Shown here: positions 21,673-27,268 of the stretch, one piece after another
Layout: each line of letters starts with the position of its first letter
Numbering within the stretch: position 1 is the first letter of the stretch
Assembly: GCA_020726335.1 (NCBI GenBank)
Contig: DYSU01000009.1
Coordinates: 5,272 to 45,766, forward strand
Direction of reading: 5' to 3'
DNA: 40,495 bases
DNA from: Thiomargarita sp.
GTDB lineage: Bacteria > Pseudomonadota > Gammaproteobacteria > Beggiatoales > Beggiatoaceae
Notes under the pieces: model-generated
Told to the model about the DNA's origin: nothing
What the model saw: the letters and a program-made list of their open reading frames with translations, nothing else
Databases searched by the model: none
Program-made: the position numbers and the translations under genes

Positions 21673-24600
21673 TCAATCTAAAAAACGGGGCCAATCAATT
21701 TTATGCCAAGTGGCTTTTAATTGATTGAACTCACAACGAATTTTCTCACACAATGCGGGTACAGGTGCGGCTTCACCTTGTCTAGTAGCGGTTTCTAACT
21801 CAAAAGCCGCTTCTCCCAAACGTACCGCCCCTACATTGCGCGATTCCCCTTTTAACGCATGTGCCACCCGCTCTAATTTTGGCAAAGCACTGATAACATC
21901 GCCCGCGCCCAATTGGGTTAATTCAGCCACTTGCTCTTCTGTTTGGGCTAAAAAGGTGTCAACTAATTTCAATAATAACATTGAATTGCCCATTACAATA
22001 TGGCGCAAATGGGCTTGGTCAAACAAGATGGGTTCATTTTTGTCCGTTTGTCTCATTGTTTGGTTTTCAAGGTTGTCATCATCAAGCAAACACACTGTTT
22101 CATGACCGTTCATGGTCAACGGCGCAGGGCTAACGCTCACCGCTTTATGGCCACAGAAATTGGCCAAAGCATCCATCACATCACGAATTTTGAATGGCTT
22201 GGCAATATAATCGTCCATACCCGATTTTAAACATTGCTCAGCATCGCTTTGCATCGCATTGGCGGTCATGGCGACAATGGGTACATGGTTGCCCGTTTTT
22301 TGTTCCAAACGGCGAATGGTGCGGGTGGCCTCCAAACCGTCCATCACGGGCATTTGCATGTCCATAAACACCAAATCAAAAGGGTCACGCGACAAGGCGT
22401 TAACCGCCTCTTGACCATTGATAACACGGGTGACATGAACTTTAAAATTTTGCAGAATATTCAAGGCAACGAAAAAATTGACTTCGTGGTCTTCGGCCAA
22501 TAACACTTTAACCGCAGGGTAGTTTACCGCCAAATTGCTGATATCCACATCACAACGGGCGGATGATTTATTGATGTCCAACCATTTGATGGGTTTGTGT
22601 TTAACATAAGCGGCGTATAAAACTTCTAAACTGTGGCGCAAAGCAGTTAAACGCAATGGTTTGGGCAACAAACTGGAAATACCTGCACGAATTAATTCTT
22701 CGTGTGAACCGATGTTTTTGTCTGATGACAACAACACCTGACACAAGGGCGGTTGCGCTTTTTGGGCCAATCGTTTGGTGGCCAACACCATGCCATTCAT
22801 GTCAGACATCAGATAATCCGACAACAACAGCCAAAAAGGGTCATCAGAGGCTTGAACTTTGTCCAAACGCGCCAAAGCTTGCTCACCATTTTCCACCGTT
22901 TCACAACGCAAACCAAGGTTACTCAATTGCTCTTCGACAATAAAGCGGTTTAACGGGTCATTGTCCACCAACAACACCCGTGAACCCGTAATGTCAGCGC
23001 GTGGCAACTGGTGGTCAATATCATCGGCATTATCAATATCCACCAATGGCAACGGCAAAACAAAACTGAAAGTAGAGCCTTGATCCACTTGGCTTTTGAC
23101 TGAAATTTTACCGTTCATCATTTTGACCAATTCTTTGGTGATGCTCAAACCCAAGCCCGTGCCACCAAATTTGCGGGTGGTTGACGCATCGGCTTGGTTG
23201 AATTTGCCAAAAATGCATTTGATTTTTGACGGCTCAATGCCAATGCCTGTGTCTTTGATTTGGACTTCAATCAAGCTGGCACCGTGTTGGTGGCCGATGC
23301 AATCAATATTGATCAACACATGGCCTTGATGGGTAAACTTGATTGCATTGCCCACCAAATTGAGTACAATTTGCCGAATACGGCTGGCATCGGCGTAAAA
23401 ACCATGAGGTGTATCAGGCACATAGCGAATCAATAACTGGATGTCTTTGTTTTCCGCCGTGCTGTGCAATAAATTTCTGACATCAATCACCACCGCTTCT
23501 AAATCAAACGGCGCAGGTTCCAACGACAATTTGCCTGCTTCGATTTTGGAAAAATCCAAAATATCGTTGAGCAAGGTCAGCAAAGATTGGGCAGACGATG
23601 CAATGGTGGTGGCGTATTCGCGTTGGCGCGCATCCAATCTTGATTGCAACAGCAATTCAGTCATGCCAACCACACCGTTCATCGGGGTGCGAATTTCGTG
23701 GCTCATGTTGGCTAAAAAGGAGCTTTTGGCTTTGGCGGCGGCTTCAGCATCTTCTTTGGCTTTTTGTAAAGCTTCTTCGGCTTGTTTGTGGGCGGTGATG
23801 TCGCGCCCCACTGCTTGGGCTTCAATCAATACACCGTCATCATCAAACAAAGCGCGTTCAATCCATTGTTGATAACGGATGTGACCATCGGGCATGGTGA
23901 TGCTGCATTCGGTGCTTGCCGTGGGATTGTCTTGAGTCAACGTATTGATTTTTGATCGAATATCGTTATTAAACAAAGGCATGATGCCAAGGGTCAATAA
24001 GGTGGCTTCGCTTTCTCCAAAATAGCGGCAATAGGCTTGGTTGACGAAAGTCAGCGTGCCATCAGGGGCAAAACGACAAATTAAATCGGTTTGGTCTTGG
24101 ACAATTGCACGGTATTGGCGTTCGCGGTTGCGCAAAATTTCTTCGGTGGCCAAACGCTGGCGTTCGATTTCTCGAATCATGATACTGGAAATCACATATA
24201 AGCCCATGATGCCCAATGCGATAAAAACATAGATGATGCCGCCTGTTTGAGTGAGTTCTTTTTTTTTGTCATCAAAAAAGCCTTTATTAACATAGGCCTG
24301 AATAGACCAAACCGATCCGGGCAAAGGGTCGCTAAAAGCCAGAATATATTTGCTGTCGGCTTTTGTATAGTTTATGAATGTATTGCGGGCTTCGTCGTCT
24401 AAATGGCTTAAATAATCCGTTTCACTGACTTCAATTATGCCATTATTCACGTTGGTGAGAAAAAAACTCAGGCGCGCTTTTTGATTCCATAAAGATAAGG
24501 TTTCAGAAAGCAATTCAGGCGATAAACTTAAACAGAATACACCGCCATTAAAATCCAAATTGACTAAAATATTGAAATAGTCTGACCAACCATTGCTAAA

Positions 24601-25026
24601 AATTTGCAGTGTTTGGCGGCCTTCTGTAATAAAACGTTGAAAATCATCTAATTCAGCTTGTTGCAAATAAGCGGTGTGTGAGCCTGCAATCACTTTTCCT
24701 TTGCTGTCAGTCAGGGTAAAGCCTTTAATTTTAGAGAATTTTTGCCGTAAATGGCGGTTAAGTTCTTCAATATCAGGCTCATGACCAAACTGAATGATAT
24801 TTTCAATTAACCTTTTTTCTTCATGAATGAATTGGGTGCTTTGTTGTTTTTTCAAACTGATAAGTTTATCAACTTCTTCCACCAAATGATGGATGTATTC
24901 ATTGGCATCGCCAGTGATATTGGTTCTGAAATCTTCATAGCGGTCAACGGATGACCAAATTAATATACCTCCGATAACAAACAGGCTGATCGCAGAGAAA
25001 ATGAGAATGAGATGTTTATGGTTCAT
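21673..25026 (-). CDS. Hybrid sensor histidine kinase with two receiver domains and HPt
   Basis: This 1117-aa inner-membrane phosphorelay protein resembles the BarA/ArcB class. Order: membrane span (about 5-25), periplasmic sensor region (26-260, probably a single-Cache-like fold), second span (262-283), PAS/PAC (303-413), coiled coil, HisKA with phosphoacceptor H443 in [12 protein letters not shown], HATPase with DTGIGI and GGTGLGLSI, receiver 1 (D737, with [10 protein letters not shown]), receiver 2 (D889 in [12 protein letters not shown]) and a C-terminal HPt domain (H1056 in AHALKGES). All phosphotransfer residues are present. The signal and output are unknown; no response regulator with a DNA-binding domain is adjacent. 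It lies downstream of the six-cysteine pair on the same strand, separated by 105 bases. Confidence 0.92.
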
Positions 25027-25131: not shown

Positions 25132-25389
25132 CTATTTTTTCAAGCCATCAGCCGCTTTTTTAATACAGCGACTTTCGATTTCAGTACAGGCGATAACACA
25201 TGAGCGCATACCTTCCATTTGTACCCGTTGATTTTGACAACTGTTGGTACACAATTGGCGCATTTGCATACACTGTTGCGCTACTTTTTGTGCTTGTATG
25301 GCTGATTGGGCATTCACCATTTGTGACCAATACACTGTCAACAGAATGGCAGTTAATTTTACAATTGCTTTAAAATGCTGATACAGCAT
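25132..25389 (-). CDS. Small secreted six-cysteine protein, copy B
   Basis: This is an 85-aa protein from the ATG at 25389, chosen because AAGGAG lies exactly six bases upstream. A signal peptide ends at MVNA near residue 27. The mature domain has six cysteines spaced C-x6-C-x3-C-x12-C-x3-C-x6-C, a mirror-symmetric pattern suggesting two antiparallel helices joined by disulfides. The central part fits the twin CX3C layout known from small mitochondrial Tim chaperones, probably by convergence. It is the second of two tandem paralogues with the same layout but little other identity. Function unknown; export to the oxidising periplasm is inferred. Confidence 0.72.
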   Translation of the reverse strand: MLYQHFKAIVKLTAILLTVYWSQMVNAQSAIQAQKVAQQCMQMRQLCTNSCQNQRVQMEGMRSCVIACTEIESRCIKKAADGLKK

Positions 25390-25466
25390 AAGGGGCTCCT
25401 TATATTTTTGAATAACACACTTTGAACGAGATAGGGTTGTTTTATTATTTAGAGACAAACAGGGCT

Positions 25467-25730
25467 TTATTGATTTTTTTCTTGATGATTGGCATTGTCA
25501 ATACAGTATTTATATTTGGCCGTACATATGCGGTCTAAACAGGTTAAAATCAGTTTATGGTCTTTTTGGGTACGGCATTGTTCCTGACAAGACAAATATT
25601 GCAACATACAAGCGCGGGTGGCTTTGGTTAAACTGTCAGCCGAAACAGCCGATTGCCATAACAATAATAATGCCAAGGCTTTGAGTGCTTTGTGCTGTGT
25701 TTTTATGGACATAAAAAATTGATTCAACAT
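25467..25730 (-). CDS. Small secreted six-cysteine protein, copy A
   Basis: This is an 87-aa protein from the ATG at 25730, supported by AAGGA eight bases upstream and by the parallel ML-x-Q-x-F start of its neighbour. Alternatives are an ATG at 25739 and a GTG at 25766. A signal peptide (ALKALALLLLWQSAVSA) precedes a mature domain with cysteines spaced C-x6-C-x3-C-x11-C-x4-C-x6-C. The spans between outer pairs equal those of copy B. The helices carry many Lys, Gln and Tyr residues. It lies 77 bases upstream of copy B and has its own promoter, so the pair is probably co-transcribed. No family recognised. Confidence 0.7.
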   Translation of the reverse strand: MLNQFFMSIKTQHKALKALALLLLWQSAVSADSLTKATRACMLQYLSCQEQCRTQKDHKLILTCLDRICTAKYKYCIDNANHQEKNQ

Positions 25731-25819: not shown

Positions 25820-27268
25820 ATGCGAGTTTTATTTGTTACACCAGAAATCTATCCCTTAATGAAAATAGGGGGGTTGGGCGATGTTTGTCACAGTTTACCC
25901 ACTGCGATGCGAGCCATTGGCTTGGATGTGCGCGTGCTGATTCCGGGCTATCCCCGTGTACTGGCCTTGCCCGACATCCAGTCGACAGGCATCCAGCTCA
26001 CATTAGAAAAGCATCTGGTGGCGGATATTCTCACCGCCTTGCTACCCGACAGCAACGTGCCGCTTTATATTATTGATTGCCCTGATTTATACCGACGTGC
26101 AGGCACGGCGTATCACGACACTGACGGCAACGAATGGCCAGATAACGCCTTGCGTTTTGCCTATTTATCCAAAGCGGCGGCTTTGCTGGCACTGAATGGT
26201 TTAGATTTTGTTCCCGACATCATCCATTGCAATGATTGGACAACGGGCTTGGTCGGTGCGTTTTTATATCAACTTCAGCCAACGCATTCCATCAAACTGA
26301 TGATGAGCATTCACAACCTTGCCCATCAAGGGTTGTATCCCAGCGCGTTAATTGAAGAACTGGATTTATCGTGGACGCATTTTACCATAGAAGGATATGA
26401 ATATAATGGCCTACTTTCATTTATGAAGGCAGGCCTTTTTTATGCTGATTGGATCACCACCGTCAGCCCCACTTATGCCAAAGAAATTTGCACCGAACGC
26501 TATGGCCATGGTTTACAAGGGGTTTTGCAACAAAAAACCGCTATAACCACAGGCATACTCAACGGCATTGATTTAAACGTGTGGAATCCAGAAATTGACC
26601 CGCACATCAAACAAAATTACAACACCTTCAACCTGAACAAAAAACAACGCAACAAAAAAATCTTGCAAAAACAGTGGTCTATGACCGTTGATGAAAACAT
26701 CCCGATGTTGGCGGTTATCAGCCGCTTGGTGCATCAAAAAGGCTTGGATTTGATTTTAGACATTGCCGCCGACATCTTGCACGAAGGCGCGCAACTGGTG
26801 TTTTTGGGCATAGGTGAAGCCGAATTGGAGCAACGCTTACGCCAATTGCAAAAACAACACCCCAAAAGTGTTGGCTTGACTTTGGCCCATGATGAAGCGT
26901 TGGCACATCAAATTGAAGCGGGCGCGGATATTTTTCTCATGCCCTCTCGTTTTGAACCTTGTGGCTTAAATCAACTGTACAGTATGCACTACGGCACTTT
27001 GCCGTTGGTGCGCAAAACGGGCGGTTTGGCCGATTCAGTCATCGACACCACGCCCGCCCATTTGAATGACAAAACCGCCACGGGCTTTGTGTTTGCCGAA
27101 GAAGACCCACAGCAATTATTGCACTGCATTCAACGGGCGTTGTTGGTCTATCGTGACAAAAAAACATGGCGCAAAATTCAAAAAACCGCGATGGACAAAG
27201 AGGTCAGTTGGGAAAACAGTGCAGAACAATACATTCAATGTTATCGCCAATGCTTGGCAGAAGAATAG
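25820..27268 (+). CDS. glgA: Glycogen synthase (ADP-glucose type)
   Basis: This GT5 enzyme (482 aa; E. coli 477) transfers glucose from ADP-glucose to the glycogen chain. The ADP-glucose-binding loop is KIGGLGDV (residues 15-22). The HNLAHQGLYP block, SPTYAKEI, and the C-terminal catalytic region PSRFEPCGLNQLYSM followed by RKTGGLADSV are all conserved. No glgB, glgC or glgP is adjacent; malQ is 17 kb away. The ribosome site before the ATG is weak (ACGG). It is divergent from the six-cysteine pair and is followed by bepA after 52 bases. Confidence 0.95.
   Translation: MRVLFVTPEIYPLMKIGGLGDVCHSLPTAMRAIGLDVRVLIPGYPRVLALPDIQSTGIQLTLEKHLVADILTALLPDSNVPLYIIDCPDLYRRAGTAYHDTDGNEWPDNALRFAYLSKAAALLALNGLDFVPDIIHCNDWTTGLVGAFLYQLQPTHSIKLMMSIHNLAHQGLYPSALIEELDLSWTHFTIEGYEYNGLLSFMKAGLFYADWITTVSPTYAKEICTERYGHGLQGVLQQKTAITTGILNGIDLNVWNPEIDPHIKQNYNTFNLNKKQRNKKILQKQWSMTVDENIPMLAVISRLVHQKGLDLILDIAADILHEGAQLVFLGIGEAELEQRLRQLQKQHPKSVGLTLAHDEALAHQIEAGADIFLMPSRFEPCGLNQLYSMHYGTLPLVRKTGGLADSVIDTTPAHLNDKTATGFVFAEEDPQQLLHCIQRALLVYRDKKTWRKIQKTAMDKEVSWENSAEQYIQCYRQCLAEE

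Follow-up and report, generated by a model that had tools for sequence, protein, structure and literature searches.

The twin CX3C motif is strictly conserved in the small Tim proteins (PMC3759932). Plant α-hairpinins carry CX3C-Xn-CX3C in their 4C form and CX3CX3C-Xn-CX3CX3C in their 6C form (PMC11591084). Among copper storage proteins, the Csp proteins are four-helix bundles with many cysteines that hold 13–20 Cu(I) per monomer, and those of the Csp1 type leave the cytoplasm through the Tat pathway (PMC7558416). Here, we analyze a pair of small genes of Thiomargarita sp., coding for the proteins P0001 and P0002, which resemble α-hairpinins or small Tims in build and are members of neither group.

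Results

A Pair of Six-Cysteine Genes

The window, i.e., the whole stretch of 40,495 nucleotides that was analyzed, contains two minus-strand genes having exactly the cysteine spacings claimed in the original prediction. P0001 (25132..25389, minus strand, 85 aa) starts with a Sec-type signal peptide, MLYQHFKAIVKLTAILLTVYWSQMVNA (25309..25389, minus strand), and continues into a six-cysteine core with the pattern C-x6-C-x3-C-x12-C-x3-C-x6-C (25165..25272, minus strand). P0002 (25467..25730, minus strand, 87 aa) is similarly composed of a signal peptide, MLNQFFMSIKTQHKALKALALLLLWQSAVSA (25638..25730, minus strand), and of a core with the pattern C-x6-C-x3-C-x11-C-x4-C-x6-C (25503..25610, minus strand), in which CxxxYxxC is present in both halves. 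The signal peptides were assigned by eye: both proteins begin with a short, positively charged segment, followed by hydrophobic residues and an AxA-like cleavage site, after which about 56–59 residues form the mature part. Neither signal contains a twin arginine. An AAGGAG ribosome-binding site lies upstream of P0001. For P0002 there are two alternative starts, ATG at 25730 (87 aa) and ATG at 25712 (81 aa), and the sequence makes the former (MLNQFFMSIK...), with AAGGA before the start codon, the likely one.

The spacing of the cysteines had been described as mirror-symmetric, which is exact for P0001 and one residue off for P0002. If six cysteines are placed at random twice, in domains of comparable size, the probability that no gap differs by more than one residue is 8e-5. 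The common pattern of P0001 and P0002 is not due to chance, because five more paralogs in the genome share the outer gaps. As expected from the first inspection, the two proteins have low identity outside the cysteines (25% identity, E = 0.083 for BLASTP).

Seven Members and Two Types in the Host Genome

The host genome (2.1 Mb in 88 contigs, 97% complete) was searched with P0001 and then with a profile. This gives seven members: the window pair, P0003 on contig 50, P0004, P0005, and P0006 clustered on contig 86, and P0007 on contig 81. All seven sequences have six cysteines and an N-terminal signal-like segment, which systematically lacks a twin arginine, and all keep the outer gaps 6-3 and 3/4-6. 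They fall into two types. Type A (P0001, P0003, and P0004) has the pattern C-x6-C-x3-C-x12/13-C-x3-C-x6-C, and type B (P0002, P0005, P0006, and P0007) has the pattern C-x6-C-x3-C-x11/12-C-x4-C-x6-C. Type B proteins have an invariant tyrosine four residues past C1 and again past C5 (CxxxYxxC in both halves) and, in the host genome, a Gln directly after C2. Only the middle gap is free to vary, from 11 to 13 in the host genome and from 9 to 12 in the alphaproteobacterial relatives (see following). A type A gene adjoins a type B gene at two of the four loci, namely in the window and on contig 86. The multi-copy members are strongly divergent, and the net charge of most of them is +3 to +5, one being negative and another near neutral.

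The tree of 12 sequences separates type A from the rest (97/96 support) and groups the alphaproteobacterial relatives with type B; because the tree is short and noisy, only this split was used. When the profiles of A and B are compared, the six cysteines all fall in register, over 51 aligned columns (hhalign, E = 0.014). The two types thus likely share ancestry, although this is not proven by sequence alone. The idea of an old duplication under structural constraint, put forward for the window pair, is supported by the separation of A and B into distinct clades, the latter including the alphaproteobacterial relatives.

Distribution in Other Genomes

In the bacterial family of the host, 42 other genomes were searched, and none has a real copy. 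Two weak matches in this group (L010 and L011) are false, as they correspond to a sequence with stops in frame and to a ferredoxin-like protein. A profile search of 369 genomes drawn over the class found the family in the host genome only. Of 398 genomes sampled across the phylum, two, both from a single genus of another class, have type B relatives (E = 6e-6 and 3e-5), and from the look of its genes this class would be alphaproteobacterial. These relatives are exported proteins of 73 aa with the sequence C-IQKYRL-C-NQR-C-x11-C-INRT-C-NRQYDN-C, i.e., the exact type B register with both tyrosines. Among 147 genomes of the same genus, four have matches, including one already found in the phylum draw (G549), so that three further genomes gain copies. 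One genome (G1204) has a divergent second form with six cysteines and a middle gap of nine residues. The family is rare in this genus, as only five genomes are known to carry it, with G753 counted, and among 385 genomes drawn from the alphaproteobacterial class it was found in none besides G549. Homologs of the window pair thus exist, and the fully read ones all keep six cysteines; a short partial match (L086) was left outside this count.

Searches in mobile elements and in larger sets gave no additional members. The tblastn searches in plasmids and phages returned nothing credible. In the contigs of about 85,000 species, the strict type B pattern with the Gln had no matches, and a second type B scan gave 17 candidates, none of which was confirmed. 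In viral contigs, the type B pattern of cysteines and tyrosines had 26 matches, nearly all with internal stops or of low complexity, and none is real. With loose gaps, the cysteine pattern matches many times by chance in almost any genome, and it is usable only with frame checking.

In the vicinity of the alphaproteobacterial six-cysteine gene there are small proteins, probably exported, which combine RDHR-type repeats with a cysteine motif at the C-terminus, as judged by eye (L080:569-895, L081:2261-2644, and L085:1041-1439). On its other side there is a short conserved protein that is DUF4242-like by eye.

Similarity to Known Families

The family had not been recognized at first inspection, and it has no credible match in Pfam, NCBIfam, PHROGs, or PADLOC. 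Several Pfam families match weakly (big defensin, UL45, AtDEF-like, Colipase-like, and HlyU); these matches were discarded as noise of the cysteine pattern, because they lie below the cut-offs and mostly concern different families in different members. LIC_10730 (NCBIfam NF047531) was rejected as well, as it matches only P0002, with 18.2 bits (E = 0.0015) against a curated cut-off of 170 bits. One PHROGs family, phrog_21030, matches P0003 alone (E = 0.007). When the profile of the full family was compared with the PDB, the two best matches, both nonsignificant, were Csp3 (E = 0.21) and the Jug r 2 peptide of walnut vicilin (E = 0.24). The weak matches of Foldseek include α-hairpinins (9q1l, 2lqx, and 6o3q) and Vanabin2, none of them with E < 0.001. 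The structurally sensible matches, i.e., α-hairpinins, Csp3, and Vanabin2, are disulfide-clamped or cysteine-rich helical proteins, and all are statistically weak. Vanabin2, a eukaryotic, vanadium-binding protein of ascidians, is helical and disulfide-rich, with nine disulfides; it ranks low in both fold searches, and its scores are not significant. No bacterial family of this description was found in the open-licence literature. Judging from their sequences, P0001 and P0002 belong to a new, undescribed, and lineage-restricted small family.

Predicted Fold and Oxidation Machinery

The mature parts of P0001 and P0002 were modeled with AlphaFold2, using as alignment those two sequences alone. 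In P0001, the model has helices at residues 2–27 and 32–58 joined by a four-residue turn (mean pLDDT 86.0, pTM 0.63), and in P0002 the helices span residues 2–23 and 28–55, also with a four-residue turn between them (mean pLDDT 89.5, pTM 0.69). The helical hairpin that had been anticipated, with two helices and a short turn, is therefore what AlphaFold2 gives for both window proteins. When residue numbers are added for C1+C6, C2+C5, and C3+C4, the three sums are identical in type A and differ by one at most in type B, which is the register expected if three cross-links are nested between antiparallel helices. In a rigid-helix calculation, all three cysteine pairs can reach disulfide distance in both the A and the B patterns, which indicates feasibility rather than proof, because, of 40 random spacings, 10 match the performance of type A and 14 that of type B. 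With the spacing C4-x4-C5 of type B, C4 would need a local bulge to stay on the helix face. Disulfides are likely in P0001 and P0002, and they would pair C1 with C6, C2 with C5, and C3 with C4. The fold class is well supported by the models, and there is a strong case for regarding both proteins as exported helical hairpins clamped by disulfides.

The host genome codes for a DsbA with the motif CPHC (L088) and for a DsbC/G-like protein with the motif CFYC (L089), so that an oxidant would be available to thiols after export. The Pfam model PF02600, which detected the controls, gave no DsbB in the host genome.

Gene Neighborhoods

A hybrid histidine kinase with PAS, HisKA, HATPase, two receiver domains, and Hpt (21673..25026, minus strand) lies 105 bp downstream of the pair and on its strand, as described originally. 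On the other side, the divergent neighbor (25820..27268, plus strand) is referred to as glgA (glycogen synthase), a name taken from the original prediction and from the look of the translation. A functional link of the pair with the kinase or with glgA, which had been proposed as a point to check, is unsupported, because the 42 other genomes searched from the host's bacterial family have no copy of the six-cysteine genes and because the neighbors of the other paralogs differ. These include a second hybrid kinase, convergent with P0003, a MotA/ExbB-type channel, a Mg-chelatase-like AAA protein, and a HAD hydrolase. In the region L047:6558-8860, P0007 is upstream of a gene on the same strand that looks by eye like a sigma factor, with no Pfam match, and the gene after the latter matches zf-HC2 and codes for a putative anti-sigma-type zinc-finger protein. 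Among the neighbors scanned, there is no gene partner common to the paralog loci.

The pair was also thought to have its own promoter, which was not borne out: promoter-like sites are few and near chance, and none upstream of P0002 on its strand is convincing. The copies share upstream motifs no more than shuffled sequences do, and most of them are preceded by a plausible ribosome-binding site. Beside the three-gene cluster of contig 86 there is a probably exported protein with an ELWKSDGT-type motif and no Pfam match (L003:2205-3026).

Discussion

On balance, we favor the view that these genes form an undescribed Sec-exported envelope family, whose members would be single hairpins with three nested disulfides used as stoichiometric binding, inhibitor, or chaperone-like modules. 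The six-cysteine proteins would be exported unfolded via Sec and oxidized by the host DsbA, with the DsbC-like protein correcting the pairing, and the three nested disulfides (C1-C6, C2-C5, and C3-C4) would clamp the antiparallel helical hairpin. The result would be rigid, mostly cationic, and fast-diverging scaffolds that would most likely act stoichiometrically, in the periplasm or as secreted proteins, rather than as enzymes or as thiol metal stores. The A and B types would have diverged anciently and still stand side by side at two loci. The role itself, that of a passive binding, inhibitor, or chaperone-like module, is the tentative part of this explanation, and we would give it slightly less than even weight.

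The α-hairpinins, such as BWI-2c, the Jug r 2 peptide, and VBP-8, are helix-loop-helix proteins, a build that AlphaFold2 also predicts for P0001 and P0002, and they are likewise small and secreted, with cysteines that are often the sole conserved residues. By analogy, the family could consist of secreted antimicrobial or protease-inhibitor peptides, cationic, fast-diverging, multi-copy, and released outside the cell. The net charge of +3 to +5 of most members and their strongly diverged multiple copies would fit this role, as would the fold likeness to the trypsin inhibitor BWI-2c and to Jug r 2 (rmsd of 0.7–0.8 over about 30 residues, not significant). However, two members depart from this charge, one being negative and the other near neutral, the neighbors scanned include no recognized genes for bacteriocin export or immunity, and PHROGs and PADLOC gave no defense or phage family match of note. 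The likeness to α-hairpinins is itself partial. The inner motif CX3C-x12/13-CX3C is found in type A only, type B having CX4C, and the outer cysteines are three residues off in α-hairpinins but six in the Thiomargarita proteins. The latter are, moreover, bacterial Sec-exported single-domain genes, whose sequence and fold scores to α-hairpinins are not significant. We consider this explanation improbable, even if it fares best among the alternatives.

The Csp proteins also have cysteine-lined helices, but four of them instead of the two predicted for P0001 and P0002, and many cysteines instead of six. This raises the alternative of a half-size store for copper or soft metals, in which reduced cysteines would line the core of a hairpin dimer resembling the four-helix bundle of Csp. 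Csp3 is the best PDB match of the family profile, and the lack of a DsbB match in the host genome would suit reduced cysteines. In addition, Csp1-like, cysteine-rich, Tat-type proteins of relatives in the same bacterial family (L059:1192-1623 and L060:1198-1623), which match DUF326 weakly, just below cut-off, contain the exact type A skeleton 6-3-12-3-6 in their C-terminal half. These Csp copies, however, start with SRRNLL and would use Tat, whereas the six-cysteine proteins have Sec-type signals and would meet DsbA. No member matches DUF326 (PF03860) or has extra CxxxC cysteines, a pairwise comparison with a Csp does not rise above noise, and exactly six cysteines in nested register are a better fit to three disulfides. 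A metal store is therefore unlikely, a little more so than the secreted peptides. Similar DNA pattern matches to the 6-3-12-3-6 skeleton of the Csp-like proteins occur in three genomes (G013, G028, and G031).

The likeness to small Tims, pointed out in the original prediction, holds for the twin-CX3C-like geometry of type A; membership in, or descent from, that family is not supported. The twin CX3C is found in all three type A members and in none of the four type B members, which have CX3C followed by CX4C. Small Tims have four cysteines, in contrast with six here, where there is also a bacterial export signal. The Pfam small-Tim models match neither P0001 and P0002 (E up to 10) nor P0003–P0007 (E up to 1). 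As for the CHCH proteins with twin CX9C, no member of the family has two CX9C motifs between neighboring cysteines. A periplasmic chaperone in which A and B assemble into hetero-oligomers like Tim9/Tim10 and shield unfolded envelope proteins would account for the twin CX3C with a middle gap of 12–13 in type A, for the adjacency of A and B genes at two of the four loci, and for the predicted hairpins, but the missing second CX3C of type B, the lack of a sequence match, and a patchy distribution unlike that of a housekeeping chaperone make it quite unlikely. The stronger version, a convergent bacterial counterpart of the small Tims in which seven copies in one lineage chaperone or sequester unfolded exported envelope proteins as A + B hetero-oligomers, is more doubtful still.

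An exported family of disulfide-clamped hairpins thus remains the explanation we prefer. Its proteins are very small and would be easily made test proteins, and they may constitute a natural substrate set for DsbA and the DsbC-like protein in a genome in which DsbB was not found. Disulfide-clamped helical hairpins recur in eukaryotes, in small Tims, CHCH proteins, and α-hairpinins. A bacterial family that stands alone, has multiple copies, and shows a six-cysteine register of its own would represent the same solution in the bacterial envelope.
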